Virus record (IMG/VR): IMGVR_UViG_3300007520_000027
Location: 1 to 49,842 of that record
Strand: one strand, 5' to 3'
Origin: a virus
Length of the DNA: 49,842 bases
Shown piece by piece: positions 27,502 through 45,008 of the stretch. Numbering within the stretch: position 1 is the first letter of the stretch; the number at the start of each line of letters is the position of its first letter. The notes under the pieces are model-generated. The model made no database searches, was not told the DNA's origin, and saw only the letters and a program-made list of their open reading frames with translations. A program made the translations under genes and the position numbers.

Positions 27502-29544
27502 TTAAAATTTATGGCAAAAACCGAATGCCTCGTTAAATAAATTGTCCCAAGTTTTAATATGACCATCTAGTGAAAATTTTTCCACTATTGTTTTTCTTGC
27601 TTCTTTTCCCATTTTGTCTGCGAGTTCTTTATCTTTTGACAGAAGTTTAAGTCTATCTGCTGCTATATTAGGCTTATCTGGAGGATACAAAAAGCCATTG
27701 ACTCCATCTTTAATTATCTCTGGTATCATACAAGTGTTTGTAGAGACACAAGGAAGTCCACAAGACATAGCTTCTAATAGAGCACAAGGAATTGGAGAAA
27801 TCGTGCTAGTGTTTAAGAATATATAAGACTGTCTGTACTCTTGTACTAGTCCGCTTATACCTTCTGCTTTTTTACTAATTCCAGGAGTATCTCCAATAGG
27901 ATGGAATTTTAATTTTTCATATGAGTGAGTTTTAATTTCTTTATAAATATCCCACCCGCAACAATTATGAACAACAAACCCAGGATAAACAACGTAAGAT
28001 TGATCTTTAGATACTTCGCAGTTGTAAACAGTTCCTCTCCATTCAAAATCTATATCGACCTTCTTTATGGTATAAGAATATGCCTTATTTGCTTTAGACT
28101 CTGTAATGAGATCTTTACATTTTTCAAATTTTTGACCAGAGCTAGTTACCCTGTATATGGGAACTATGTTTCTATTAGATTTATTTGTTGTTCTTTTTTC
28201 AAACAAAATATTACATGCTACTCCAAAAGAATGAAGAATAGAACTTACTTGAGAAGCTAGTTTTCCTGAAATAGTAGAATAACACGATCTCTTAGAACCA
28301 TTTTTGCCATTTTCAAATGATCCGTCGCAAAACCAAAGTCCTTGCAAGATAGCTAATCTTGATTCTTGACTTCCGTTAAAAATAAAGTCAGGAATGCTTT
28401 TATTATAAGACTTTCCACCTATCTTGCTTTTTAACCACGACACAAATATCTTAGAAGTACAGTTTACCTTTATTGTTTTACAATTTTCTAGCTTGTTTCT
28501 GTCTCTATGCGAAATATATGCCTTTTGTCCAGTAATCTTATTAAGTATATCACACGCTCTCTCTGCTTCTTTTGTATCTTCTGTCTTAAAAACTATTTCA
28601 ATATTCCCTGTATCAGACAATGATCCATCTCCAATTATTAATCCAATAACCCAAGACAAATCTATACTTTCTGGATAAAAAGAATTTTGTTTATGACCTG
28701 GAAACTTTAAAATATCTCCTTCTCTAAGCATAGAAGCTTCTATATATTTTTCTTGACTGTCTCTAAGAACTCTTACAGAGTGATCGCTAGTAAACATCAA
28801 TGGCTTTTTATTATTGTCCACTAATATAGAAACCATCGGTCCAAAGTATTCTCTCTTGAATGTTTTTATAACACTGTTATAGTTGCCACTATCTGTAAGA
28901 ACTATATTCCCGACAGATATATTTTCTATATTTTTATATCCATTGTCTGTCAGAATTTTTTGGCCAGATGGCATACACCATCCCCTATTTTTATAATCAT
29001 TACAAACAGTGAGTATGTTGTTATTTTTTTCTATAGATGGTTCAGGACTAAATAAAGTTGAATCTACACCATGATGAATTATTCTAACTGATTTATCGTT
29101 TGGATCAGCTCCCCACTCTTTTGCACTATATTCACTAATATACACATTAAAATCACCACGCATATTCGACATACCCTGTATGGTTTTTTTATCCCACTCT
29201 ATAAATGGCAATGTGTGTTCGAGACTTATCAAGGGAATATTAAGTGAATCAGATATGTTTTTAGCTATTTCAAATTGTCCAAATTTATTTTGACTTAAAA
29301 CAATATCAAAGATTGTTCCAATGATAAACGGGTTTTCTTCGTTTTTAAGTAAAATATGATTATCTGGCAACATAGCATATGATTCATTCCAAGTTTTTAT
29401 ATTATTCCCTTGGTATAAATGAAACGTGTGTTCTAAGCCACTGAGATTAGATTGATATCTTTCGTGTGTTGGAAATGATAAGATATTATATTTATTGCTA
29501 TGATTATTCACTGCTTTTAATATTGAAGTATGTTTAGATTGCAT
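27502..29544 (-). CDS. GT4-type glycosyltransferase interrupted by an intein
   Basis: The gene encodes 680 residues; removing the intein at residues 190-527 leaves a 342-residue protein, normal for a GT-B glycosyltransferase. The N-extein (1-189) includes FDIVLSQNKFGQFEIA and IIHHGVDSTLFSPEP, a typical acceptor-domain end. The C-extein (528-680) holds FHPIGDT, GLVQEYRQSYIFLNTSTIS and LLEAMSCGLPCVST. In the C-terminal EX7E motif the first Glu is Ser (SPIPCALLE), so activity could differ from the family. The join restores NRGW-CCGWDIY. It stands in the glycan module; substrate unknown. No clear ribosome binding site was found in front of its ATG. Confidence 0.88.
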   Translation of the reverse strand: MQSKHTSILKAVNNHSNKYNILSFPTHERYQSNLSGLEHTFHLYQGNNIKTWNESYAMLPDNHILLKNEENPFIIGTIFDIVLSQNKFGQFEIAKNISDSLNIPLISLEHTLPFIEWDKKTIQGMSNMRGDFNVYISEYSAKEWGADPNDKSVRIIHHGVDSTLFSPEPSIEKNNNILTVCNDYKNRGWCMPSGQKILTDNGYKNIENISVGNIVLTDSGNYNSVIKTFKREYFGPMVSILVDNNKKPLMFTSDHSVRVLRDSQEKYIEASMLREGDILKFPGHKQNSFYPESIDLSWVIGLIIGDGSLSDTGNIEIVFKTEDTKEAERACDILNKITGQKAYISHRDRNKLENCKTIKVNCTSKIFVSWLKSKIGGKSYNKSIPDFIFNGSQESRLAILQGLWFCDGSFENGKNGSKRSCYSTISGKLASQVSSILHSFGVACNILFEKRTTNKSNRNIVPIYRVTSSGQKFEKCKDLITESKANKAYSYTIKKVDIDFEWRGTVYNCEVSKDQSYVVYPGFVVHNCCGWDIYKEIKTHSYEKLKFHPIGDTPGISKKAEGISGLVQEYRQSYIFLNTSTISPIPCALLEAMSCGLPCVSTNTCMIPEIIKDGVNGFLYPPDKPNIAADRLKLLSKDKELADKMGKEARKTIVEKFSLDGHIKTWDNLFNEAFGFCHKF
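27964..28977 (-). mobile_element. Intein in the GT4-type glycosyltransferase (338 aa)
   Basis: Residues 190-527 of the host protein. The first residue is Cys (CMPSGQKILTDNG, block A), block B has TSDH at 252-255, two LAGLIDADG motifs (WVIGLIIGDG 298-307 and ILQGLWFCDG 399-408) mark a homing endonuclease, and block F/G ends GFVVHN before Cys 528. It is therefore a full-size, apparently active element: splicing residues Cys1, block B His, penultimate His, terminal Asn and Cys+1 are all present. Insertion in a glycosyltransferase is unusual. Confidence 0.95.
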
Positions 29545-29545
29545 T

Positions 29546-30652
29546 TTATATTATCAATTCTTTAATTTTGTTTCCTACATTAACCCTAGATAAATTATTA
29601 ATTATTTCATTAGACCTTTGAATTTTGTCACCACTGTTATTTTTTGTAAAATACTTAAGCATCAATTCGCTCATCTCTTCTATATTTGGCCTAAACCAAA
29701 GTTCTTTAGATGAGTATAGCCCCATTGGTGCGTTATGATTCCCCAATGCTGGCGTTATAGATCCGTCTATTAGATCTCCGAAATCACTAGAGTATAAGTT
29801 ATAATCTTTGAACGCTCCAAAATTAGGAGCGATAATCTTATTTCCAAAAGCAATAGCATCAATTGCTGGATTACACCAGCTTTCTCCTCTACTCATAGTT
29901 ACAAATGTATCACAAGAAAGATGAAGAGATGCTAGTTTTTCCTCAGTAAGGAACTCTGATATAATAGCAATTTTTGGAAATTTTTTAACATTACGATTTA
30001 TTCCTGATCTTACTTTCATTTCTTCTATTATTTTCTTTAATTCTTCACTAGCTTGTCCAGATGTTTTTCCACTACTGTTAATTTTAATGACTAATAGAAC
30101 ATCATCGTTGTATGTGAAAGCATTAAAATACGAAAGCAATAGTTCTGGTAAATTTTTTCTAGTATTTAGCTCAGAAATAGTATAGAACTTATATGCAGAG
30201 TTATAAATATTGAATTCAAAAAACTCATACGACTTAGTATATTTATTTTTATTCACAGAGTGAGGTATGACTGTTCCCTTTTGGATACAATCATACACAC
30301 TTTTTTGCATATTACATGGATGAACTAGCTTGTCTACTAGTTTAATATGAGTTTTCCAGAAATTAAACGGAACACCAAGTGTCTCATACGCAAACGAACC
30401 AATGTTTATTACACCTTGTTTATACTGGAATTCACTTGGAAGATTGTATTGAAAAACTGCATCTACGTTGTTAAGATTAGTATTTTCTAATTGTAAGATA
30501 TCATCAGGAAGTTTAATAATATCATTTGTCATCTTGCATCTTCTACATGCTACATCTAATCCAGCTTCTTTTGCTGAATAAATATATTCTAATAATGCAT
30601 TTCCGTATCCGGTCCCAGATTGATATGGCCCGATAAATAATATTTTTTTCAT
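29546..30652 (-). CDS. GT4-type glycosyltransferase (GT-B fold)
   Basis: The 368-residue protein starts MKKILFIGPYQSGTGYGNAL, a GT-B N-terminal loop, and has VIPHSVNKNKYTK, the donor-domain strand FYTISELNTRKNLPELL, and RGESWCNPAIDAIAFGNKI, the EX7E-like motif, here E...D. It lacks an intein, unlike the two genes around it. The start overlaps the previous stop as ATGA, and the following gene begins two bases after the stop, so all three are co-translated. It should transfer a sugar to an unknown acceptor in the same pathway. Confidence 0.85.
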   Translation of the reverse strand: MKKILFIGPYQSGTGYGNALLEYIYSAKEAGLDVACRRCKMTNDIIKLPDDILQLENTNLNNVDAVFQYNLPSEFQYKQGVINIGSFAYETLGVPFNFWKTHIKLVDKLVHPCNMQKSVYDCIQKGTVIPHSVNKNKYTKSYEFFEFNIYNSAYKFYTISELNTRKNLPELLLSYFNAFTYNDDVLLVIKINSSGKTSGQASEELKKIIEEMKVRSGINRNVKKFPKIAIISEFLTEEKLASLHLSCDTFVTMSRGESWCNPAIDAIAFGNKIIAPNFGAFKDYNLYSSDFGDLIDGSITPALGNHNAPMGLYSSKELWFRPNIEEMSELMLKYFTKNNSGDKIQRSNEIINNLSRVNVGNKIKELII

Positions 30653-33360
30653 ACGATTTCCAATATCTCTTTCTTATCTTCTTTTTTACACTTATAATTT
30701 TCCCAACCATTATTATTTTCAACCATTGACATAAACATATCAACACAATCATTCTTTGTAAAACTTCCTCTTTGTCCACCTGCGTTATTTATATATCCAC
30801 AATTTAAAGATTTAAGTGTGTTTTGTTTAAAATATGAATTTTTTAAACTTGGTTGTTTTATAATATTATCAATGCACCAATCGACAAATAAATGATTTGA
30901 ATCATAGTTCATATCTGGTATTTGTTTTGGCGGAATAATAATATTAGGAACAGACTTGTCCCATGTATTATTTCTATCTATAATATCGATAGAATCTATG
31001 GCTTTTTCAAAAATATTTGCCGATCTTTGTAAAGAATAATTATCTCTAGCGTCACGAAAAACGCTTTCTGACATATCTGCAATTTCTTGTGGTTTTATCT
31101 TTAAGAAGTCATATGCTTTGTCACAAAGATCCTCGTTGTCTGGAAGAACTCTCATCTGTTCTGTTTCTATAACAGATTCGTAAAAAATTCTTTGTACTTT
31201 TATAGGCCAACATCCGTATACATTATTAACTTGTTCAGACATCGCACTATAATCTACAGCCATAGCCGGAATACCACAAGCCTTAGCTTCTGCTATCGGC
31301 ATAGAAAGTCCTTCACAAATTGAATATTGCACGTATAAATCAGCACAATTATATACTTCGCACAACTGATCTTGTGTTACTCCGTGATTAGTGTTTGGCA
31401 TATGAGCAGATAGATTTCCACAATGCTTACATCTAGATATTTCTCCTTCGAATCTAGAGACATAAAAATTGCTACAATTTCTACATACATATGTGCATAA
31501 AACTCTATGAGATATTTTGTTTCTTAGAATATGGCTGGACAAGTCAAATCCAACATCTGGATAAGAAGTATGGATATGCAAATAAACATCATCTTTATAC
31601 TTAACGTGATTTTTATTTAATTTATCTAAAAGTAATTTAAAAGAATCCATCAAGTCTGGATATAGCTTTCTTTTCTGATTACGCATTACAGAAAGTATTA
31701 CTTTGGAATCTCTTGGAATTCCAAGCTTTTCTTTTAATTCTTGTTTTCTATTAAGCGGCTTAAACACAGTTGGATCTACAGCGGGCCTAACTATGTCAAA
31801 TACCTTAATGTCTGGAGCTTGCTTTGCAAGTAATTTCTTTCCATATTCTGTATATGTCAAAAGAATATCTGTTTCTCTATAATCCGATATCCATTCTGGT
31901 TTTTGTGGTTCTCCATCTATAGTAGGCATACAGATGTACTTAAAATATTTCCTAAAAGGAGATTTGAGTTGAAACGAGGAACAATTATGAACAATAAAAT
32001 TTGTAACAAATGTATTATTGTCTTCTACTTCTAGATTGTATACTATCTTTTCAGCCTTATATTTTTTAATCCATCTAACGGTCATTGCTAGATGATTATT
32101 TATAAATCTTCTAGACTTAGATAGCCTGGAGACCGTTCCTTCGCAAAATAGCTCATGCCATTTATCAAAATCTGCTTTTGCTATGCTAATTATAAATCTG
32201 TCGTATGTCTTTTCTTCAATCTTTGTTTTCGATTGAGAAATAGAGCATTCTATTCCAAGCTTAATTAATAATATCCATGTTTGTCTTGCTAATTGTTCAG
32301 AAACAGTATAATATCTACCTCTTTTGGTATCAGAATTTGAACATCCGTCTCCATTGATCAATCCTTGTAAAAATTTACATAATTGATCTTTTGGTAAATC
32401 CATTATCCATTCTGGAATATATTTGCCATCAGCGTATTCTCCAAACCATTCAAGTAATTGACTAGCTATAATTTTAGATCCGATTCTTCTAGTTCTGCCT
32501 TCTCCATATTTTCCATCAACTCTACATTTATGAATAACTAAATTTTTATCTAATTCTAGAAAACTAGGAAGAACTTTATCTTCTACTAGTTTTAATTCTT
32601 TTGAATTACAAGAAATTTGTATTCCATCTTTCTTGTCTTTATGTTTCAAATAACATCCTTCTGCTACAAAAAATCCTAAAGAATATAGTAATTCATCAGA
32701 GTGTTCAGATACTTTATCTTTAAATTCTGGAATAGGAAAAAATACTTTCCCGGTTTTTTTAATTTCATTAGCAGGAACCCAATTTTCTTTAGGATTAAGA
32801 TACCACTGATGTTGGGACATATAAAGAACAGGATGTTCTGATGTCATTTCTGTCTCAAATCCCATTTTCAATGTTTTTATTTTTATAAAATCTTGATTAT
32901 GTATTCTATTCCCAGTCCTTATTACTTTTTTAGCTTCTCCAGTAATAGTTATAACGCTATCTCCTTCTTTGACTAATTGGATATTTTTAAATTTTCCATC
33001 GGACATTAAGACTGGAGTATCTTTAGAAAAACACATCCATTGGTCCCGTATGTCTATCAAGATATCAGGCTTAAAATCTAATAGGACATACTCTAACAAT
33101 GTTTTGCCAAACTGCCCATGTACGTCATTAGCATATTTTTGAAATAACTCTGACGACTTTTCAGGAATAGTAGAATAGTATTTCCATGGAAATCTTTTCA
33201 TTCTTGGGTCGTTTTCTGTAACATAGCTAGCATATTCTGCAATTTCATATTTGCCACTATTATATAAATGATTAATAACATGTCTAGATATACCAGAAAA
33301 TCCTGTGTTTAAACAAGATGCTTCGCTACAAAATAATATTCTTTTTTTAACCTTAGTCAT
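30649..33360 (-). CDS. Large GT4-type glycosyltransferase with intein and zinc ribbon
   Basis: The gene encodes 903 residues; without the intein (110-459) it is 553. The N-extein shows ILFCSEASCLNTGFSGISR and ILIDIRDQWM. The C-extein has the typical GT-B linker and donor domain: VFDIVRPAVDPTVFKP, KVILSVMRNQKRK and YSICEGLSMPIAEAKACG, with a proper EX7E (E683, E691). Inserted in the donor domain is a four-Cys zinc ribbon, C626, C629, C644 and C647 (YVCRNCSNF and SRCKHCGNL). About 190 further residues follow the donor domain, and the protein is well above the family's usual length. It overlaps the next gene by ATGA. The substrate is unknown. Confidence 0.9.
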   Translation of the reverse strand: MTKVKKRILFCSEASCLNTGFSGISRHVINHLYNSGKYEIAEYASYVTENDPRMKRFPWKYYSTIPEKSSELFQKYANDVHGQFGKTLLEYVLLDFKPDILIDIRDQWMCFSKDTPVLMSDGKFKNIQLVKEGDSVITITGEAKKVIRTGNRIHNQDFIKIKTLKMGFETEMTSEHPVLYMSQHQWYLNPKENWVPANEIKKTGKVFFPIPEFKDKVSEHSDELLYSLGFFVAEGCYLKHKDKKDGIQISCNSKELKLVEDKVLPSFLELDKNLVIHKCRVDGKYGEGRTRRIGSKIIASQLLEWFGEYADGKYIPEWIMDLPKDQLCKFLQGLINGDGCSNSDTKRGRYYTVSEQLARQTWILLIKLGIECSISQSKTKIEEKTYDRFIISIAKADFDKWHELFCEGTVSRLSKSRRFINNHLAMTVRWIKKYKAEKIVYNLEVEDNNTFVTNFIVHNCSSFQLKSPFRKYFKYICMPTIDGEPQKPEWISDYRETDILLTYTEYGKKLLAKQAPDIKVFDIVRPAVDPTVFKPLNRKQELKEKLGIPRDSKVILSVMRNQKRKLYPDLMDSFKLLLDKLNKNHVKYKDDVYLHIHTSYPDVGFDLSSHILRNKISHRVLCTYVCRNCSNFYVSRFEGEISRCKHCGNLSAHMPNTNHGVTQDQLCEVYNCADLYVQYSICEGLSMPIAEAKACGIPAMAVDYSAMSEQVNNVYGCWPIKVQRIFYESVIETEQMRVLPDNEDLCDKAYDFLKIKPQEIADMSESVFRDARDNYSLQRSANIFEKAIDSIDIIDRNNTWDKSVPNIIIPPKQIPDMNYDSNHLFVDWCIDNIIKQPSLKNSYFKQNTLKSLNCGYINNAGGQRGSFTKNDCVDMFMSMVENNNGWENYKCKKEDKKEILEIV
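31984..33033 (-). mobile_element. Intein in the large glycosyltransferase (350 aa)
   Basis: Residues 110-459. It starts CFSKDTPVLMSDGK (block A), has TSEH at 173-176 (block B), LAGLIDADG-type motifs YSLGFFVAEG (226-235) and FLQGLINGDG (330-339), block F VYNLEVEDNNTFVTN, and ends FIVHN before Cys 460. All splicing residues are present. It is as long as its neighbour's intein but inserted at a different site (DQWM-CSSF). Confidence 0.95.
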
Positions 33361-33362
33361 AA

Positions 33363-33917
33363 TTACGCACTCTTGATTTGTTTTTCAATTTCTTCTTTTA
33401 TTTTTGCAGGTGAATAAGACGGAGACTTTATTACTTTGCCGCTTAAGTTTTTAACTAAGAACTTGTCATGAGATATTTTATCAACCGTGGTTATATCGCT
33501 AGAACATTCTTCAATTTCTAATTCTTTCCATAATTTTGAAGAATTAGATCTATGAACTTCATTAAAGATTGGTTCCATGTCGATCCCCATAGCACTAGCT
33601 GTTCCACAATATCCTACTACATGTAAATCAGCAAGTCCATCTGCTACTTCGACAATATCAATCTCTTTCTCTTTATAGAATTCAATAGTTTTAAAATATT
33701 CTTTAAGATTCATTTCATTGATCTCAGAAACGTCTGGATTATTACTGGGAAAATGAACAGAGAGACCAAGTCCCTTTGTTATTGTCTCAAGAGCTTCTTC
33801 TAATATTAAAGAAGCACGTAACTTAGTCGTACTTTCGTCTATAGAACTAGGAGAATCCTTAGTTTCTTGTTTAAAATCTTTCATCCAATTTTTAATTAAT
33901 TCTTGTTCTTTTGTCAT
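33363..33917 (-). CDS. MazG-like NTP pyrophosphohydrolase
   Basis: The start has AGAAG in front. Residues 36-45 (SLILEEALET) and 90-98 (EVADGLADL) give the E-x2-E/E-x2-D metal sites of the all-alpha NTP pyrophosphohydrolase (MazG/HisE) superfamily, and GIDMEPIFNEVHRSNSSKLW is the conserved downstream helix and loop. These enzymes hydrolyse nucleoside triphosphates to monophosphates; in phages they are thought to adjust nucleotide pools or alarmone levels. The C-terminal 40 residues are an extra Lys/Ser-rich tail. It lies beside the adenine methyltransferase cluster and just upstream of the glycosyltransferases, in the same operon. Confidence 0.82.
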   Translation of the reverse strand: MTKEQELIKNWMKDFKQETKDSPSSIDESTTKLRASLILEEALETITKGLGLSVHFPSNNPDVSEINEMNLKEYFKTIEFYKEKEIDIVEVADGLADLHVVGYCGTASAMGIDMEPIFNEVHRSNSSKLWKELEIEECSSDITTVDKISHDKFLVKNLSGKVIKSPSYSPAKIKEEIEKQIKSA

Positions 33918-34126
33918 TATATCTTCTCTATTGTTATGTTTAATTTAACTACTGATAAGTTATCTAAATCTAGTATATTCTTAAGCTTATTACAAACAGC
34001 TTGTGCTGTTTTTTGAAACATATAAATTCTGCAATGTTGTATGTTGTTAGTCCACTTTACTTTATAATAATTTTGTTTTTTAAAATACTGATTATCTTTA
34101 TTAATTATTGCATATAGATAATTCAT
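33917..34126 (-). CDS. Small paralogous protein A, flanks adenine MTase (69 aa)
   Basis: I chose the ATG at 34126 over the upstream GTG at 34150; the gene overlaps the end of the methyltransferase gene by 26 bases. It reads MNYLYAIINKDNQYFKK, then NYYKVKWTN and TAQAVCNKLKN. A second gene on the other side of the methyltransferase (34825-35025) has the same sequence plan: VIINKHNKYYQ, HYKRTDWTE and RAKSICEQLEK. They are clearly paralogues with no known family; the shape (two strands, a Trp, then a helix) might be a small DNA- or protein-binding domain. No function is proposed. Confidence 0.6.
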   Translation of the reverse strand: MNYLYAIINKDNQYFKKQNYYKVKWTNNIQHCRIYMFQKTAQAVCNKLKNILDLDNLSVVKLNITIEKI

Positions 34127-34823
34127 TGATTCTTTTGAGTCCAATCTCACAAAATTCCTTTTCTTTCTCTATGCAAATATAGTCTCTATTAGTATTAAGA
34201 CACGCTAATGCAGTCGTACAACTTCCAGAACAATTATCTAAAACAATATCGTGTTCATTAGTATATGTTTTAATTAAATATTCAAATAATTTCAATGGTT
34301 TTTGTGTTGGATGCAACTTTTCTTTATCATACTTAAATTTTAAAACCGTTTTAGGATATCTTAGTCCATTGTTTATAGTTGTAACCTTTTTTTGTTCTCT
34401 ATAATTACTAGTTCCAACTCCGCTTGTACAAGAATAAGGTGTTCCTTCGGTAAATTGAGGATTGTATGTTGGTTGTTTGTTATAAAAAACCAATATAGAC
34501 TCATGATTTCTCAATGGTTGTTTTTTTGCATTTAAAAATCCCGTGCCTTGTTGTTTTTCCCATATCCATTCATATTTAAATTGCTTAGGATTACTCATCA
34601 CTAGAAACGAAGTAAATGGCTGAACAGATGTTAAAACAACTGCACCATTCTCTTTTATAATTCTGTTATATTGTTCCCATAATTTTTCTATAGGAATTAT
34701 TGAATCCCAAGAATTTCGACTAGTTATCCCGTATGGCAAATCCGAAAGTATCATGTTTATAGACTTATCTTTGATATCTTTCATAACTTCTAGACAATCA
34801 TTATTAATTATACTATTTTTCAT
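34101..34823 (-). CDS. DNA N6-adenine (or N4-cytosine) methyltransferase
   Basis: The 240-residue protein has SDLPYGITSRNSWD (motif IV, DLPY, residues 27-40), LHPTQKPLKLFEYLI and, near the C-terminus, IVLDNCSGSCTTALAC (motif I), so motif IV precedes motif I: the beta-type order of small N6-adenine or N4-cytosine methyltransferases. It transfers a methyl group from SAM to an exocyclic amine in DNA. The motif TxxLxPTQKP is common in phage orphan methylases. No partner endonuclease is visible, so it probably protects the phage genome from host restriction or regulates replication. Recognition specificity cannot be read from the sequence. Confidence 0.85.
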   Translation of the reverse strand: MKNSIINNDCLEVMKDIKDKSINMILSDLPYGITSRNSWDSIIPIEKLWEQYNRIIKENGAVVLTSVQPFTSFLVMSNPKQFKYEWIWEKQQGTGFLNAKKQPLRNHESILVFYNKQPTYNPQFTEGTPYSCTSGVGTSNYREQKKVTTINNGLRYPKTVLKFKYDKEKLHPTQKPLKLFEYLIKTYTNEHDIVLDNCSGSCTTALACLNTNRDYICIEKEKEFCEIGLKRINELSICNN

Positions 34824-34824
34824 A

Positions 34825-35025
34825 TTAAATTTTTATAACTTTCATATTCATGTTTTTACAATCATCCCACTTCTCTAATTGTTCACAGATGCTTTTAGCT
34901 CTTGTTTTACAGTTAAATGCTCTTGCTAAATATTTGTCTTCTGTCCAATCGGTTCTTTTGTAATGAGCATTTTGATAATATTTATTATGTTTGTTAATAA
35001 TAACAAATCGTTCTTCTGATGACAT
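34825..35025 (-). CDS. Small paralogous protein B, flanks adenine MTase (66 aa)
   Basis: The ATG at 35025 overlaps the cytosine methyltransferase stop as TAATG, which decides this start over a TTG at 35052. It is a paralogue of the 33917-34126 gene: VIINKHNKYYQNAHYKRTDW against AIINKDNQYFKKQNYYKVKW, and TRAKSICEQLE against KTAQAVCNKLK. It is one of a pair that encloses the adenine methyltransferase gene. The function is unknown. Confidence 0.65.
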   Translation of the reverse strand: MSSEERFVIINKHNKYYQNAHYKRTDWTEDKYLARAFNCKTRAKSICEQLEKWDDCKNMNMKVIKI

Positions 35026-35978
35026 TATTTGATTCCAATTATTTCCATGCAAGACTCTATAAAAACTGATGCCAATTGTGGAATTATAGCATTTCCATAT
35101 GCTTTGATTCTTATTTTATTAGCAACTAGTGAATAATCTTCATCTATTTTTGTATCTTGATTATTGATTGACACCATTCTTTCGGAAACCCCATTAACCA
35201 CCGGGGCAAGGCCGGATTTAATCCTTCTTCTTCTTCCGTCTCTGCAATAGACTGTTCCGAAATCGCTCCAAACGCTTGTCTTGGTAATTGATCCAATCTC
35301 ATCCTGACTGATCCGTCTTTGTTTATCGACGACACTGCCATCCCCGGCGTATCCTTCCAATCCCTGCTCGATGGAGTCGTCCATCCCACAAGAACCTCTC
35401 CTATGTACCCTCCTGTTCGATTGGTTGCAATCCTGGATGGTCGTAGCTTCTTTCGATGTATTACATCCATTGTATTGGGAGTGGGCCAGCCAGTAAAGTC
35501 TTTGTCTGATGTGCGGCGAACCGATGCTCGCACCGCACAAATCTGCTCCTGCCCTATTATAGGCCAATACTTCCAAGTCAGAGAATACTCCAGAGAGCCA
35601 TAATCTGCCATCTTTTGAAGCAACTTGCTCTCCAATAACGACTGAAGGCTTTCTTTCTTTGATAAGTCTGTGCATTTCGGGCCACAAATTTCGTCCATCT
35701 TCATTTCCCTTTTTTTGGCCAGCTATAGAATATGGTTGGCACGGACAAGAACCAGTCCATACTTCTCTGTCAATAGGCCAGTTTGCTATATTGAGTGCCA
35801 ATGCCCATCCTGCAATTCCAGAAAAGAAATGACAATGCTTATAGCTCTTGATATCATTTCCTGTTACTTCTTTAATACTTCTTGTATCGATATCCCCATC
35901 TGGTATTAGTTTGTCCTCTATTAATTGTTTTAACCAAAGACAGACATCTGGATCTATTTCGTTATAATATACTTTCAT
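35025..35978 (-). CDS. DNA cytosine-5 methyltransferase (Dcm-type)
   Basis: The 317-residue product shows FFSGIAGW (51-58, motif I, SAM), GSCPCQPYSIAGQ (77-89, motif IV with C80 as the attacking Cys), VIGEQVAS (114-121, motif VI with EQV instead of ENV), HIRQRLYWLA (156-165, motif VIII) and AYGNAIIPQ near the end (motif X). It makes 5-methylcytosine. Motif II/III-like text (NEIDP, GDIDTRSI) precedes motif I rather than following it. The middle is dual-coding with a conserved +1 frame (see 35144-35698), which raises the local G+C. No companion endonuclease is seen; genome protection is likely. Confidence 0.88.
   Translation of the reverse strand: MKVYYNEIDPDVCLWLKQLIEDKLIPDGDIDTRSIKEVTGNDIKSYKHCHFFSGIAGWALALNIANWPIDREVWTGSCPCQPYSIAGQKKGNEDGRNLWPEMHRLIKERKPSVVIGEQVASKDGRLWLSGVFSDLEVLAYNRAGADLCGASIGSPHIRQRLYWLAHSQYNGCNTSKEATTIQDCNQSNRRVHRRGSCGMDDSIEQGLEGYAGDGSVVDKQRRISQDEIGSITKTSVWSDFGTVYCRDGRRRRIKSGLAPVVNGVSERMVSINNQDTKIDEDYSLVANKIRIKAYGNAIIPQLASVFIESCMEIIGIK
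35144..35698 (-). CDS. Overlapping +1-frame ORF inside the cytosine methyltransferase (184 aa)
   Basis: A second frame is open for 185 codons inside the methyltransferase gene. It has its own motifs: SLQSLLESKLLQKMADYGS, EYSLTWKYW, GWPTPNTMDV, GWTTPSSRDWKDTPGMAV and LNPALPRWLMGFPKEWC. I know GWPTP...LNPA.SRWLMG as recurrent phage wording, often annotated as a methylase fragment. The ATG at 35698 sits eight bases after AAAGGG, a plausible ribosome binding site. The region is much richer in G+C than its surroundings, as expected if two frames constrain it. It could be a separate small protein or an alternative C-terminus. Expression is unproven. Confidence 0.5.
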   Translation of the reverse strand: MDEICGPKCTDLSKKESLQSLLESKLLQKMADYGSLEYSLTWKYWPIIGQEQICAVRASVRRTSDKDFTGWPTPNTMDVIHRKKLRPSRIATNRTGGYIGEVLVGWTTPSSRDWKDTPGMAVSSINKDGSVRMRLDQLPRQAFGAISEQSIAETEEEEGLNPALPRWLMGFPKEWCQSIIKIQK

Positions 35979-36238: not shown

Positions 36239-38218
36239 TTATACTATCTTAACATCGTTACAAACATACTGCGTTGTATTTTTCCATTCACTTTTCTTAA
36301 TATATATAGTAATAACCGATCCTTCGTTTAGAAAATCTTTTATTCTTTCGAACAAATGACTCCATACTAATATATTTTGAATTGCCGAAGAATTATCACT
36401 AACAGACAAAGATGCATACTTAGTGCCTGGATTCTTAGAATTCTTTCCAGATTCTCTTATTTTCACAGATTCTATTACTACATGTGTGCAATATGTAGCT
36501 TCTTTATCTGTCGATAATAAAATTTCCTTACAAGTCACTGCTCTATTGTCTATAGATAAAAAATCATCGACCTCAGAACAAGTTAAAGGCAATCCTAGAT
36601 ATAGTCTTTCCCAAATGCTTTTTTGTCTATTTGTATCAACAACATTTTCTTCTGTAACGTTTTTTATCTTAGCTTCTATTGTAGAAACTCTTTTCTTAAC
36701 ACACTTATTATCACTAATAATTAATTCTAAAGAAGTAATAAAGTCATTTGTTTTAAATGACTCAAAAAAGCTAGATGTTTCTTTTGGCGTCAAAGACTTA
36801 ATCAATGGACTAGAATTTTCGGTAGATTTATCTGTTTGTCCGTACAAAGCATGTATGCATCTAAGCATTAGTGTTCTTGATTGATTATAACAATCACAAG
36901 CACCAGCCTTGATTAAAGACTCGCATATATTTCTTTTTAGTATTTTTGAAGATATAATAAAATCTTTAAAAGTATTTAAAGAACTATTTGTTCCATAGAT
37001 TTTAGATAAAGCAGAGTCTCCGACTCCTCTAATATGAGACAGACCAAATAGAATCTTACTATTTTCAAGAATAGTAAAATTAGTATTTTTTTCCCTAACA
37101 TCTGGTGGACATACAAGTATATCGTTAATTCTAGCGTCTTGTACTAAATTATATATTTCTTCTTTGGGATTAGGTTTATTATTAGAATGAGTTAACCAAG
37201 ACGTATAGAATTCTGTTGGATAATTTGCTTTTTGAAAAGCCGTTAGATATCCAGTGATAGCATATGATACAGAATGGCTATTTTGTGTCACTATTCCATT
37301 TGCATAATATAAATGATCTTCACTGTCTACTTCTATATTATATGTAATCTCTGGATCTCTCATTTGAGCATATAGTATTATGTCTTTTTTCATTCCATAA
37401 GTATATAACGAAGAAGGAATGGTCAATGATGTAGATTTATTTTGTAAAAAACTTGATATTGGTCTAATTATATTATCAGTAAAAAGAAACTTATGACCAA
37501 GTGTACATTTGATAGTTTTGCCTGATTCCAATGTAATCTCAACTATATCCTGCACACCATTAATCATCTTGTCTTTAATTTTAATAAAGGTGTCTCTATT
37601 ATTTTTAATATCTGGAGCCTTGATTAAATCTCCTATTTTTATATCTTCTAAAAATTTAAATCCATCAATTGTTTCTATTAATGTATCTCCAGTTAGACAT
37701 TTGTTAAACTGGTAGCGTTGTGCTTTTTCTAACCAAGAGAAAATCTCTTCCGCTGTTTCTACGCTTACTAAGTTTTTTTCTTTAGCCTTAGAGAGAAATA
37801 TTTTTTTACACTCTGCAATAACTTCTGGTAATTTTTTTCCAATTCCTTTTCTAATGTATTTATCAGATTCCACATCTGTGAATCCAGCTATCTCCATTCC
37901 AATCTTCATAGACTGTTCTTGATAAATCAAACAAGATTTTGTTTTTTCTAAAATTGGAATTAATGCGTCGCTAATATATTCTGGTTCCATCTCTCCATTT
38001 TTAATCTTAGCGTAATTATCTGTCATTTGGGCCTCAAGGCACGAAGGACGAATTAGTGCAATTAAATCAGATAGTTCATCAATAGAACGTGGCTTAATCT
38101 TTTTTGCCCAAGCTTGTCCTAATTGACTTTCTAATTGAAAGATACCAATGGTTCTTCCAGAACAAATTAAATCCCATGTTAACTTATCGTCTAATGGAAT
38201 ATTTTTAAAATTATACAT
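36239..38218 (-). CDS. dnaE: DNA polymerase III alpha (DnaE), C-terminal half, with mini-intein
   Basis: The gene encodes 659 residues, 519 after removal of the intein (174-313). It begins at NFKNIPLDDKLTWDLI, where the DnaE catalytic palm passes to the finger region; GIFQLES (25-31) and LIALIRPS are family C landmarks, IYQEQSM and the FNK-SHSVSYA step follow, and a helix-hairpin-helix region (GLSHIRGVGDSAL) precedes a C-terminal OB-like domain (VVIESVKIRES to YIKKSEW). With the partner gene at 38908-42156 it gives 1,214 residues, normal for DnaE. It is not a pseudogene: no frameshift or stop is seen. The halves must associate to polymerise. Confidence 0.9.
   Translation of the reverse strand: MYNFKNIPLDDKLTWDLICSGRTIGIFQLESQLGQAWAKKIKPRSIDELSDLIALIRPSCLEAQMTDNYAKIKNGEMEPEYISDALIPILEKTKSCLIYQEQSMKIGMEIAGFTDVESDKYIRKGIGKKLPEVIAECKKIFLSKAKEKNLVSVETAEEIFSWLEKAQRYQFNKCLTGDTLIETIDGFKFLEDIKIGDLIKAPDIKNNRDTFIKIKDKMINGVQDIVEITLESGKTIKCTLGHKFLFTDNIIRPISSFLQNKSTSLTIPSSLYTYGMKKDIILYAQMRDPEITYNIEVDSEDHLYYANGIVTQNSHSVSYAITGYLTAFQKANYPTEFYTSWLTHSNNKPNPKEEIYNLVQDARINDILVCPPDVREKNTNFTILENSKILFGLSHIRGVGDSALSKIYGTNSSLNTFKDFIISSKILKRNICESLIKAGACDCYNQSRTLMLRCIHALYGQTDKSTENSSPLIKSLTPKETSSFFESFKTNDFITSLELIISDNKCVKKRVSTIEAKIKNVTEENVVDTNRQKSIWERLYLGLPLTCSEVDDFLSIDNRAVTCKEILLSTDKEATYCTHVVIESVKIRESGKNSKNPGTKYASLSVSDNSSAIQNILVWSHLFERIKDFLNEGSVITIYIKKSEWKNTTQYVCNDVKIV
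37280..37699 (-). mobile_element. Mini-intein in the DnaE C-terminal half (140 aa)
   Basis: Residues 174-313: it begins CLTGDTLIETIDG, has TLGH at 239-242 (block B), ends ITYNIEVDSEDHLYYANG then IVTQN before Ser 314. No LAGLIDADG or HNH block is present, so it lacks the endonuclease. The penultimate residue is Gln instead of His. It interrupts FNK-SHS, three residues downstream of the cyanobacterial split-DnaE site. Confidence 0.93.
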
Positions 38219-38907: not shown

Positions 38908-41900
38908 TTATTTTATTGATCCATTTACTAAATCCTGAACAAGTTTTAACTTATCTAAAACTGAAACTCCAAGTATATCAAGCTTAACTCCTCCACAAGT
39001 AGCTACGTCCTTATAGTCAATCCCAATAACTCTTTCTTTTGTTTTAGTATCATAAGACATGGGAAAACAAGTGCTTACATCGTTTTCAGTCACAATTACA
39101 CCAGAAGGATGCTTTCCTTTTCCTCTTTGTTTTCCTTCTAATTTCATAGCGTCTTCAAAAATACTCTTATATTCATCTTGTTTGTAATAATCGCTAATTT
39201 CTTTATTATTATCAATCGCCCATTGTAATATTCCGTAATCTTCTAAGCCAGAGTCTTTTGCTTCTTGGATTTCATCAGCAATCTCTGCCTCATTAGGGAT
39301 AAATTTGGATAAGCTATTGGCTATTTCAAATCCACCAACAATCCCTTTGACTCTAAACACATCTTTTATTGCTGCTCGTCCTTGAATTCTTTGGAATGTA
39401 ATGATTTGACTAACTTTAGAATCACCGTATTTCCACTTAAGATATTCTATTACCCATTCTCTTCCTTCTGTTGCAAAGTCAACATCGATATCTGGCATTT
39501 CTACGTTGTCTTTGGTATTTCTTGCTGTATTATAAAATCTAGCAAATAACAAATCGTATTTTAATGGATCGGACAATATATCAGTAATACCTATTAGTGC
39601 AGACACCAAACAGCCTGCCGCACTGTTGTGAACAGCGTTCCAATTTGCTATGTAAGACTTATCATCTTCTACTTCTAAGTCATAAACATATCCATTGTAA
39701 CTATGGTATTTTTTATCTTTTACTAAGTCCAAAAAATGATTATTTATTCTGTAATGTTGATTTCTAGTATTTTTGTGTTTTGAAAAACAAAAAAGTTTTG
39801 GGAAAAGTTTATTCCAAATGATTAATTGTTTTCCTGATATTCTCAAAGTTAATTCGTCTTTGTGATTTTCTTGTTGTCTCTTGTATCTGCATACGTTGGT
39901 ATATATCCCCATTTTTAATAAAATAAATTTAATTTGATTGATTAAGTCATATGAACACGTTGAGTATGACACTCTTTCTCCTAAAATACATCCGTCTCCA
40001 GAAAATAATCCATAGATTAATCCTTCTTCAAATCCAAAGTTATTAATATTAAATATATGGTCATTAATTTTCTTAAAATTAGCAAGATTATTACCAAAAA
40101 AAGAAAACATTCTAGATATTAACTTATCATATAAAAACAACTGACAAGAATTTTTAGTTTTATGATATATTTCTGTTGTTTTAATTTTAAAAATATCAAA
40201 TATTATTCTAGATATTTCTTCTCTATATTGAATTTCATTTTTATGAAAACAAAATCCTGTTGTGCTAGATCTGGCATATCCTTCGGATATATAAAAACCA
40301 ATTATAACTCCGAGATCCCTATTCGCTTCAATATATCGAGGATATTTTTTCTTTTTTAGACTTCCATTATAAAGATATATATTATTGTCGTCCCACTTAT
40401 ATATCCATTGAGTATTTTGATCATTGACTGAGTTTAAATCACATATTTTCACTAGATCTAATTTATCTATTAATGTCCCATTAGGAATTGACATAGATAC
40501 AAAAGTTTTATTTTTAGTAGATAGATTGCCATTTTTAATTGATTTTGAAAAACTATCAGCTTTTTTGAATTCAATTCCATTAAAAATCTCATGATCTTTT
40601 GTACAAAACAAGGATCTATTTGCTATTGTTAGTTCTACGATTTCCTCGTTACATTGATATTTATGAACAGAATTAATTTTTTTTGTATTTCCAAGATGAG
40701 TAATAACAAGATCTCCTGTTTTGCAATCTTGTATTTTTTTTATAACGCCATTGTGCATTAAAATCTCAGTATCGGGCAAAAAACAACCACGGCCTATTCC
40801 AATGGGAATTGGATCTAATTCTCCATTACTCTTTAAATTTTGCTTCCAATCAAAAGAATGGTCTTTTGGTCTAGCTTGTGCCGCCATGCAATAATCCCAA
40901 ACAACAAGAAAATATGGTGCAAGACCAGCTTCTGATATAACAGCCATTTCGTGCTTTAGTCTTTCCCAATATTCTTCTTTGTTAATTCCAGATGTTTCCC
41001 ATGGTTTATATTTTTTAGCACCTTCTATAGCAATTGTAAATAAATAGTTATCTTCTATTATCTTAGATGTTGATACTGTGTATTTCACATCTTTTGGATC
41101 TATTTCTATAGTTGGAAGCATGGGTTTTCTAGAAATCTCATATGCTTCAATTGATTCTGCAATATTATTTGTTAGACTAAGCTCTTCTTTAGTAAATTTT
41201 TTAGACATTTCTTCAAAAGAATGCATATAAAAATTATCGCTTCCAAAGAATACCATAATGTCATCAGAATCTTTGTCAAACATTTGAGAAACTGTTTCTT
41301 CTGTTTCTCTCATGTTAATCATGACCATTGTTCTTTGGTGCTGTGCATCTTCTGGATTCGCGTAATGCGGATCACTACTAGCAATAGCTGGTATTCCAGT
41401 TTTCTTAGAAACTTGTCTTAAACAATCTACGATTAATGGTTGAATCCACAAAGGAAGCTTGTCTGATTCTTTTAATTCATTCTGCAATTCTATAAAGAAA
41501 TTACCTTTGCCAAACATTTTTTGAAACGACAAAGCTAATTCAGATGCTTTTTCTAACCAATCTTCTCTTAAAAATTTCTTATAAAAATCAAGATCTTTTT
41601 CTTTATATTGTGCATATGCTAATCTAATGTCTGCTTTTTTCTTTATTGGATCATCAGAAAATATATCACTAAACAATATGTCGGACAGATGAGAACCTTG
41701 GTGTCCACTAAATCCCATGATATTGCCATCAAGAAAATGTTCTAATCCATAAAACTCTTTCTTGTCTTCTTCTCGAACCGAATTATATAAACTTATTCTA
41801 GGCTTATAATAATAAATCTCTGGATCATTAGTGTGACTGACTAGATCATTTAAAGTTTTCCATCCAACTTTATTTTTCGCCCATATAACCATGTGCGAAT

Positions 41901-42156
41901 TTTGCTTATTAGTAACATCTTTGATATGAGCATCTTTGTGAACAACATAAAGCTCAATTCCAAGAATTGGCTTTACTCCTGCTTTTTTACAAGCAGAATG
42001 ATGCTGTATGTGAGAATATGTATTGCCGTGATTCGAAATACCCAAAGACTTCATTCCTAGTTCTTTTGCTCTTTTGGCATTCTCTTTTGGAGAGGAATAT
42101 CCATCTAGGATCGAGTATGAGTCATGGCAATGGAATAAGGTATAATAATTATTCAT
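38908..42156 (-). CDS. dnaE: DNA polymerase III alpha (DnaE), N-terminal half, with intein
   Basis: The gene encodes 1,082 residues, 695 without the intein (458-844). A PHP domain occupies residues 1-270 with HCHDSYSILDG (H9, H11), SNHGNTYS (here Asn in place of the usual Asp) and SDPHYANPED. It is followed by the palm, with GIGRG-SAAGCLVSALIGITD joined across the intein and PDIDVDF (888-894) carrying D889, D891 and D893. It ends LDILGVSVLDKLKLVQDLV, and the C-terminal half continues from there in a separate gene (36239-38218). This is the catalytic core of a replicative family C polymerase; the beta clamp partner is not in the window. Confidence 0.93.
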   Translation of the reverse strand: MNNYYTLFHCHDSYSILDGYSSPKENAKRAKELGMKSLGISNHGNTYSHIQHHSACKKAGVKPILGIELYVVHKDAHIKDVTNKQNSHMVIWAKNKVGWKTLNDLVSHTNDPEIYYYKPRISLYNSVREEDKKEFYGLEHFLDGNIMGFSGHQGSHLSDILFSDIFSDDPIKKKADIRLAYAQYKEKDLDFYKKFLREDWLEKASELALSFQKMFGKGNFFIELQNELKESDKLPLWIQPLIVDCLRQVSKKTGIPAIASSDPHYANPEDAQHQRTMVMINMRETEETVSQMFDKDSDDIMVFFGSDNFYMHSFEEMSKKFTKEELSLTNNIAESIEAYEISRKPMLPTIEIDPKDVKYTVSTSKIIEDNYLFTIAIEGAKKYKPWETSGINKEEYWERLKHEMAVISEAGLAPYFLVVWDYCMAAQARPKDHSFDWKQNLKSNGELDPIPIGIGRGCFLPDTEILMHNGVIKKIQDCKTGDLVITHLGNTKKINSVHKYQCNEEIVELTIANRSLFCTKDHEIFNGIEFKKADSFSKSIKNGNLSTKNKTFVSMSIPNGTLIDKLDLVKICDLNSVNDQNTQWIYKWDDNNIYLYNGSLKKKKYPRYIEANRDLGVIIGFYISEGYARSSTTGFCFHKNEIQYREEISRIIFDIFKIKTTEIYHKTKNSCQLFLYDKLISRMFSFFGNNLANFKKINDHIFNINNFGFEEGLIYGLFSGDGCILGERVSYSTCSYDLINQIKFILLKMGIYTNVCRYKRQQENHKDELTLRISGKQLIIWNKLFPKLFCFSKHKNTRNQHYRINNHFLDLVKDKKYHSYNGYVYDLEVEDDKSYIANWNAVHNSAAGCLVSALIGITDILSDPLKYDLLFARFYNTARNTKDNVEMPDIDVDFATEGREWVIEYLKWKYGDSKVSQIITFQRIQGRAAIKDVFRVKGIVGGFEIANSLSKFIPNEAEIADEIQEAKDSGLEDYGILQWAIDNNKEISDYYKQDEYKSIFEDAMKLEGKQRGKGKHPSGVIVTENDVSTCFPMSYDTKTKERVIGIDYKDVATCGGVKLDILGVSVLDKLKLVQDLVNGSIK
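39625..40785 (-). mobile_element. Intein in the DnaE N-terminal half (387 aa)
   Basis: Residues 458-844, inserted at GIGRG-SAAG. It starts CFLPDTEILMHNG, has TKDH at 519-522 (block B), LAGLIDADG-type motifs VIIGFYISEG (617-626) and LIYGLFSGDG (713-722), block F VYDLEVEDDKSYIAN, and ends WNAVHN before Ser 845. All splicing residues are present, with Ser as the +1 nucleophile. Confidence 0.95.
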
Positions 42157-43872: not shown

Positions 43873-45008
43873 TTAGTGATCCTTTGAAAGCTTGGTAAGA
43901 AAATATCAGTCATCTCAAGAGAGGATAGCTCATCTATGTCTTTTCCTACTGGAATAAGATGGTTTATATTTATAATATCGAAATAATTTTGACAATTTCC
44001 AAAAAATTTCTCAGTTGCTAACAAACCTTTTTCGTCTGTGTCTAACATTAAGTAAACATTCTCTACTCCAATCTCTATCAGTTTTTTTATCTGATAGATG
44101 GAAATATCTAGTCCGAATAAGCATATAGCATTGTATATTTTATATTCATCTAAAAACCATATTTCCTTTGGGCCTTCTGTTATTACAACAGACTTTGTAT
44201 TTCGTATATATTCTTTAGCATTATTAAAATTATAAAGAACATTGCTTTTTTTAAATCCAAAGTGCTTCCATTTGGAATATCCTCTAATCATAGGATTGTC
44301 CTTGGGACATCCCTTATTAGGCTGGTGAAACCATGGACAATATGGGCATTTTTCGTATATGGTTCTTCCTGTTACTCCAATAACGTTTTTGTTATCTTCG
44401 TCTATAATTGGAGCAAATGATCTTAAGTGCATTGGCTTAGTAATGTCATTACAAAATCCTATATGAAACTTTTTTAATGTTTTTAATGAAAATCCTTTGT
44501 TAAGAAAATAATCACTAGTTTTCACATTTTTTTCTAATAATTTTAAATCAAATGGTTTAAAGTCTTCGTGTTCTTTAAATTTTAATTTATTATTAATAGA
44601 ATGCACTTGTTTTATACTGTTGTTTATCTTATGAAGCTCTGAATCTTCTAAGTTAATGGTTTCGTTTGAACTTATTCCTAATTTATTACAAAGCCACTCT
44701 ACTGATTCTATAAATGAATTTGACTCTTTAAAAACAACTGCTTTTACTAAGTCAATTATACTTGAGCCAAAATTATCGTGACACTTATGAGAATAACATC
44801 TCCATGTTCCGTATTTAGTATTAATAGAAAAAGATGTAGGATTATCTCCTCCGTGAACAGGACAAGAAAATCGTAGTTCATCATTGTTAACAATGCCATC
44901 GTCAATATCTATTCCTAATTCAGAAAGAACAAAATCAATATTTTCTATTGCTTTATTTTTTAAGTTTGATAAAAATAGATTGCTATAATTTTCATTTATT
45001 ATTTTCAT
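43860..45008 (-). CDS. dnaG: DnaG-type DNA primase
   Basis: The protein is 382 residues, shorter than cellular DnaG (about 600). A CHC2-type zinc finger is at residues 49-76 (C49, H52, C71, C76), and the TOPRIM core has VVITEGPKE (E278) and MLDTDEKG (D323, D325). Between them lies a second Cys/His set, C221, C224, H228 and C234 (EKCPYCPWFHQPNKGCPK), which is not a normal part of the family and may be a second zinc site. The C-terminal helicase-binding part is short. It makes RNA primers; dnaB lies immediately upstream, overlapping by 17 bases. Confidence 0.92.
   Translation of the reverse strand: MKIINENYSNLFLSNLKNKAIENIDFVLSELGIDIDDGIVNNDELRFSCPVHGGDNPTSFSINTKYGTWRCYSHKCHDNFGSSIIDLVKAVVFKESNSFIESVEWLCNKLGISSNETINLEDSELHKINNSIKQVHSINNKLKFKEHEDFKPFDLKLLEKNVKTSDYFLNKGFSLKTLKKFHIGFCNDITKPMHLRSFAPIIDEDNKNVIGVTGRTIYEKCPYCPWFHQPNKGCPKDNPMIRGYSKWKHFGFKKSNVLYNFNNAKEYIRNTKSVVITEGPKEIWFLDEYKIYNAICLFGLDISIYQIKKLIEIGVENVYLMLDTDEKGLLATEKFFGNCQNYFDIININHLIPVGKDIDELSSLEMTDIFLPSFQRITKCQS

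Follow-up and report, generated by a model that had tools for sequence, protein, structure and literature searches.

Multispecific phage C5-methyltransferases of the SPbeta type carry several exchangeable target-recognition units within a single chain that is read from a single frame. In the C5-methyltransferase M.EcoHK31I, the large-subunit gene also encodes the small subunit, in a different frame. For M.EcoHK31I (YGGCCR), PMC3404938, citing Lee et al. 1995, assigns motifs I-VIII and X to the large subunit and motif IX alone to the smaller polypeptide, and there the target-recognition region (TRD) is predicted to lie in the large subunit. M.AquI is a working C5-methyltransferase that is split into two chains near the TRD, its small subunit holding motifs IX and X together with the distal half of the TRD (PMC3404938). 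The ShiLan element is an out-of-frame HNH homing endonuclease inserted in actinophage methylases, with a patchy distribution (PMC11855218).

Here we describe a methyltransferase gene from a 49,842-base IMG/VR virus contig, the whole of which is referred to as the window. Our results make it highly probable that this gene encodes a two-subunit C5-methyltransferase in two overlapping frames, the catalytic part in frame 0 and the specificity part in the +1 frame.

Results

A long open reading frame nested in the methyltransferase gene

A sequence-only reading of the window had proposed that its methyltransferase gene (35978-35025, minus strand) is dual-coding, on account of a long open +1 frame. 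Such an ORF is indeed present, running from an ATG at 35704 to a stop that ends at 35144 and comprising 186 codons of a +1 frame that is open for 192 (Table 1), and the peptide wording quoted at the time is found in its product. When the synonymous codons of frame 0 were shuffled, the open stretch averaged 69 +/- 20 codons, and one of at least 192 codons arose in just 2 of 20,000 shuffles. The same stretch had been described as much richer in G+C than its surroundings, which is correct as far as the averages go (46.5% in the overlap, compared with 36.5% and 27.7% where the gene does not overlap and 33.0% for the remainder of the window), although the overlap is not the window's maximum, a different 561-nt stretch having 52%. 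The overlap is likely to be G+C-rich because the frame-0 third positions are the second positions of the +1 frame, so that no drift towards A+T is possible. Relatives of low G+C show the same contrast, for example one (L196) with flanks at 37% and an overlap at 54%.

Table 1. Features of the methyltransferase locus, in positions of the window.
Feature	Position	Strand	Frame, size or basis
Frame-0 gene, catalytic (alpha-like) subunit of C5-methyltransferase	35025..35978	(-)	317 aa, P0001
+1-frame gene, proposed specificity (beta-like) subunit	35144..35704	(-)	186 aa, P0002
Motif II/III-like segment YYNEIDPDVC, before motif I	35940..35969	(-)	frame 0; TIGR00675 match begins at profile position 24
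Motif I, FSGIAGW	35805..35825	(-)	frame 0
Motif IV with catalytic PCQ, GSCPCQPYSIAG	35718..35753	(-)	frame 0; C80 and neighbours invariant in alignment A6
Shine-Dalgarno-like AAAGGG	35707..35712	(-)	sequence
Likelier +1 start codon ATG	35696..35698	(-)	8 nt past the end of AAAGGG; 50 relatives also have ATG at the homologous position
N-terminal fold, helix and beta-hairpin	35507..35650	(-)	+1 frame; pLDDT 81-87, residues 21-60
Motif VI variant, GEQVAS	35616..35633	(-)	frame 0; G116-V119 invariant in alignment A6
Motif VIII, GSPHIRQRLYW	35490..35522	(-)	frame 0
Cassette 1, GWPTPNTMDVIHRKKLRPSRIATNRTGGYIGEVLV	35387..35491	(-)	+1 frame; cassette clustering
Cassette 2, GWTTPSSRDWKDTPGM...RLDQLPRQA	35273..35386	(-)	+1 frame; cluster 0
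Motif IX, LNPALPRWLMGFPKEW	35174..35221	(-)	+1 frame; hhalign and frame tally
Motif X, YGNAIIPQLA, beyond the +1 stop	35070..35099	(-)	frame 0

An N4/N6-methyltransferase gene adjoins the locus (34101-34823, PF01555, 2.6e-27). Two ORFs of about 75 amino acids, at 34825-35052 and 33917-34150 on the minus strand, are similar to each other (local score 90, against 55 for the best of 1000 shuffles); each lies directly 3' of a methyltransferase gene and overlaps its end, the former at the C5 gene and the latter at the N4/N6 gene. Elsewhere in the window, intein/Hint matches occur in five minus-strand genes (27502-29544, 30649-33360, 36239-38218, 38908-42156 and 44992-47724), of which two are glycosyltransferase-like, two jointly cover DNA polymerase III alpha and one is a DnaB-like helicase; four of the five also have LAGLIDADG domains. 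Inteins within glycosyltransferase genes look unusual.

Catalytic motifs in frame 0

In a database search with both frames, the frame-0 product P0001 matched PF00145 (8.9e-16) and phrog_363 (1.7e-63), and the C5-methyltransferase (PF00145) catalytic motifs I, IV (PCQ), VI, VIII and X are all in this chain, motif VI reading GEQV. In a standard PF00145 enzyme a TRD and motif IX separate motif VIII from motif X, but the frame-0 chain has neither; both are in the +1 frame, and inspection of the motifs of the window's chain did not find motif IX in frame 0. The predicted structure of the frame-0 chain has a confident large domain (residues ~1-171, confidence dropping around 80-90) and a confident motif-X helix (residues ~300-314), and residues 172-295, mostly with pLDDT <50, form no ordered small domain. 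The best Foldseek match of this model was M.HhaI (6.6e-9), and M.HaeIII and DNMTs were also matched. At 35805-35969 (minus strand) the motif II/III-like sequences (YYNEIDPD, DTRSI) precede motif I (FSGIAG), a permuted order that is common to the relatives in alignment A2.

Motif IX and recurring cassettes in the +1 frame

The +1 product P0002 matched phrog_1008 ('DNA methyltransferase', 6.6e-17) in the same search. The sequence-only reading had linked it to phage proteins annotated as methylase fragments, and the match to phrog_1008 places that link in the right direction, but the product is better read as a subunit that holds motif IX and the target-recognition region. It had no significant match in Pfam or NCBIfam, and a sequence search of the PDB with the +1 profile gave no match. 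Its predicted structure (mean pLDDT 62) was uninformative, with no significant PDB match by Foldseek; the helix and beta-hairpin are its sole confident piece and the rest is uncertain. A poor model would be expected if the chain folds on a partner or on DNA, and is not itself evidence for such folding.

The motif-IX-like segment sits near the end of the +1 product. Among 131 readable loci chosen by frame 0 alone, the motif-IX pattern is in the +1 frame in 110 and in frame 0 or +2 in none, and in actinophage loci motif IX is in frame 0 in 25 of the 28 that are readable. In an hhalign comparison, the +1 proteins and the actinophage tails align at motif IX over 23 columns (probability 89.7%, E 1.8e-6). 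Most +1 proteins have 1-4 units, each starting with G-W-x-T-P, and the unit types recur among them at differing ordinal positions. The cluster RDWKD...DQLPRQ (cluster 0) is present in 164 of 257 +1 proteins at varying positions, a count obtained by single-linkage clustering at 55% identity, which drew some other units into this cluster. The window's product has two units, the second being of this common type. These W-x-T-P cassettes may be interchangeable target-recognition modules that set specificity. With motif IX and TRD-like cassettes both in the +1 frame, the hidden frame thus holds the VIII-to-X content of a C5 enzyme.

Conservation of the two-frame arrangement

Relatives were collected through frame-0 patterns and, separately, through +1 patterns. 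Homologues with only one frame open, which had been named as counter-evidence to dual coding, are not what was found: in 291 of 292 loci (window included) the ORFs matched by the two profiles overlap and stand in the same +1 register, and frame 0 is open throughout across the relatives in this comparison. The +1 stretch exceeds the synonymous null (p<0.05) in 87% of 261 homologous genes, a set in which the window is counted along with phage loci, against 0.4% for the +2 control; one row (L291), which is the window gene again in reverse orientation, was disregarded in this shuffle test. The sole locus of the 292 with best matches outside the +1 register (L081, 1117-2003) has a frame-0 profile that matches two ORFs in different frames, and this anomaly suggests an indel.

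Among named phages, the arrangement occurs for example in N15 (gene 58), PAT1 (Uetakevirus), K1ind1 (Kagunavirus), a cyanophage and a Rhodobacter phage, and more distant enzymes that have it are found in Paenibacillus and Lactobacillus phages. Frame 0 alone is annotated in N15, RcKeef, PAT1 and Klebsiella phage 2 LV-2017, and both frames are annotated in K1ind1, PhiXhv-28 and Arcticfreeze; in Cr-LKS3 it is the +1 frame that was annotated as the gene. The arrangement is kept in hundreds of related viruses and is mostly annotated as a single gene. A literature search did not find the overlap described in phages, which is weak evidence of absence since most subscription papers were beyond reach.

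Which frame is under selection

Because the window has no close neighbour (its best relative is at 46% identity), constraint was measured on its relatives, and codon-position differences were taken from pairs at 75-98% identity. Before the +1 ORF, frame-0 positions 1, 2 and 3 differ at 0.037, 0.038 and 0.329, which is the pattern of a normal gene. Within the overlap after motif VIII, the values are 0.221, 0.100 and 0.121, and for well-aligned TRD codons only (52 pairs) they are 0.196, 0.034 and 0.027. Past the +1 stop they are 0.073, 0.060 and 0.302, with third-position variation normal again. The frame-0 dNS/dSS in the TRD region is 1.38 (CI 0.98-2.08), and frame 0 therefore shows no sign of purifying selection there; for the +1 frame dNN/dNS is 0.072 and dSN/dSS 0.16, all of these figures resting on only ~144 SS sites and on pairs that have sequences in common. 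Constraint across homologues had been suggested as a check on dual coding, and with a dN/dS of about 0.07-0.16 the +1 frame proves to be more constrained than frame 0 in the TRD region. Both frames are coding according to the substitution tests, and past motif VIII the constraint falls on the +1 frame, frame 0 being merely kept open.

Signals for translation of the +1 frame

The commonest internal ATG in the relatives lies 79 codons before GEQV and has a Shine-Dalgarno 4-mer ahead of it in 73% of cases, as against 21% for synonymous choices (3.5x). The window does not have this upstream start because stops close its +1 frame there. N15 has GGGAGG eight bases 5' of an ATG that is one codon off the position favoured in the window. 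In the window itself, the run of seven A (35710-35716) and the AAAGGG eight bases 5' of the ATG at 35698 are both present as previously described. At the position equivalent to 35698, relatives have a Shine-Dalgarno sequence in 62% of cases against 58% by codon choice, which is no enrichment, and the window's start thus rests on its own sequence. Such a site precedes 18 of the 44 longer ORFs of the window, against a background of 8%. The window's +1 ribosome-binding site is modest and its +1 start is not the commonest one; internal initiation at 35698 is plausible, and in the family the +1 protein is probably made by internal initiation. The shared register, the constraint on both frames and the translation signals in relatives bear out the proposal of dual coding.

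Discussion

In the model that we propose, frame 0 would be translated into a catalytic subunit consisting of motifs I-VIII, a flexible linker and motif X, the linker being only the out-of-frame reading of the +1 protein. The +1 frame would be translated from an internal start into a small specificity subunit, in which a short N-terminal fold is followed by two W-x-T-P cassettes for target recognition and then by motif IX. Together the two chains would form the active enzyme, whose probable role is to mark the phage's DNA against restriction by the host. The dual coding, the division of the motifs, the recurrence of cassettes at different positions and the start signals in relatives are computed results. 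The assembly of the chains, the methylation activity, the role of the cassettes in targeting and the exact start in this phage are what we infer.

An explanation that we consider improbable is that programmed frameshifting or polymerase slippage, for example at the A7 run (35710-35716), fuses the two frames into one polypeptide, as the sequence-only reading had suggested for a second product. The run does lie directly before the +1 start, and in Gordonia phage Jumbo frame 0 stops soon past motif VIII with the remainder, including motif X, in the +1 frame, as would be seen in a frameshifted enzyme. However, a shift at A7 would yield a fusion without the frame-0 motifs VI and VIII, and because motif X is in frame 0 a complete enzyme would need two opposite shifts. 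N15 has no A run at that site, and the internal Shine-Dalgarno-ATG signals of the relatives, as well as a frame 0 that is open throughout, also argue against a fusion; slippage at A7 was rejected on this evidence. In Jumbo (L293, 1408-2290) an xPTPxAxD unit, motif IX and a motif X-like sequence are all in the +1 frame past the frame-0 stop, and this locus is either a relative with a frameshift or split, or the product of an error in sequencing.

Unrelated functions are common among overprinted phage genes, and the +1 product has neither a Pfam family nor a fold match, so it could be a protein in its own right with a different role, such as anti-restriction or regulation, its overlap being incidental. 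We give this possibility equally little credence, as the +1 product carries the motif IX that is missing from frame 0, and actinophage methyltransferases have a counterpart of this product in frame, at the equivalent place. ShiLan shows that a phage methylase can hide a further gene (PMC11855218), yet that the +1 ORF is an inserted selfish gene comparable to its out-of-frame HNH endonuclease is extremely unlikely: a ShiLan-type HNH domain in an inserted, disjunct element was not found, the +1 product having no HNH family match, and the ORF is near-universal in the relatives rather than patchy and starts before motif VI, inside conserved frame-0 sequence rather than in an insert. Just as remote is an ORF produced by chance from base composition and frame-0 conservation. 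Chance stops are indeed scarcer in G+C-rich DNA, which many of the relatives have, but shuffles that preserve protein and composition seldom reproduce the ORF, and the greater constraint on the +1 frame in the TRD region is not what chance would give; chance and G+C bias were likewise rejected.

Beyond the single gene, we lean towards the view that a two-subunit arrangement of this kind defines a large, mostly unannotated class of phage C5-methyltransferases, with exchangeable specificity cassettes in a hidden +1 frame over which frame 0 is an open linker to motif X, and in which swapping a cassette would redirect the enzyme in trans and leave both frames open. Since annotation pipelines mostly call one frame or the other, the specificity subunit would be missed in many phage and prophage genomes, and the frame-0 sequence alone would misdirect the prediction of methylation targets. 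If the model is true, the annotated 'TRD' of these enzymes is a mere out-of-frame reading. The arrangement is also an unusually clear case of a long stretch in which constraint is stronger on the alternative frame than on the annotated one, and cassette swapping offers a direct route to the recognition code of this C5-methyltransferase family.

The F-type single-chain C5-methyltransferases of actinophages (Estave1 and relatives) have, in one frame and in this order, motif VIII, an array of xPTPxAxD cassettes, a motif IX-like segment (AFPEWMMGWPAGW) and motif X (GNGVxPQQA), and the single chain of Estave1 matches phrog_363 over its full length and phrog_1008 over residues 203-366. These enzymes and the two-frame pair thus share the order of their pieces and their PHROG families, except that in the actinophages all is in one frame. 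The actinophage loci L294 and L300-L331 have a variable number of xPTPxAxD cassettes of ~35 aa, in an order that differs between phages. In its architecture, the modularity of the +1 cassettes resembles that of the SPbeta-type multispecific enzymes. Like ShiLan, the +1 product is a second protein encoded out of frame within the gene for a phage methylase; unlike ShiLan, it supplies methyltransferase motifs and is near-universal in its family. The phage genes differ from M.AquI in that motif X stays on the large chain and in that they overlap extensively.

The window's methyltransferase gene is closest in layout to M.EcoHK31I, with motifs I-VIII and X on the large chain, motif IX on a second chain, and that second chain encoded in the other frame within the large-chain gene. 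Whereas the TRD of M.EcoHK31I is predicted in the large chain, the phage cassettes are in the small-subunit frame, where frame-0 dNS/dSS is ~1.4. M.EcoHK31I is also part of a restriction-modification system, whereas no restriction gene was recognised beside the phage gene; one was also looked for next to two plasmid loci (L332 and L333), and none is annotated there. The phage enzyme is best read, by its motif layout, as a variant of the M.EcoHK31I kind rather than as a proven member. A two-polypeptide precedent has been known since 1995; what looks new is how widespread the arrangement is among phages, and a hidden frame with target-recognition cassettes.
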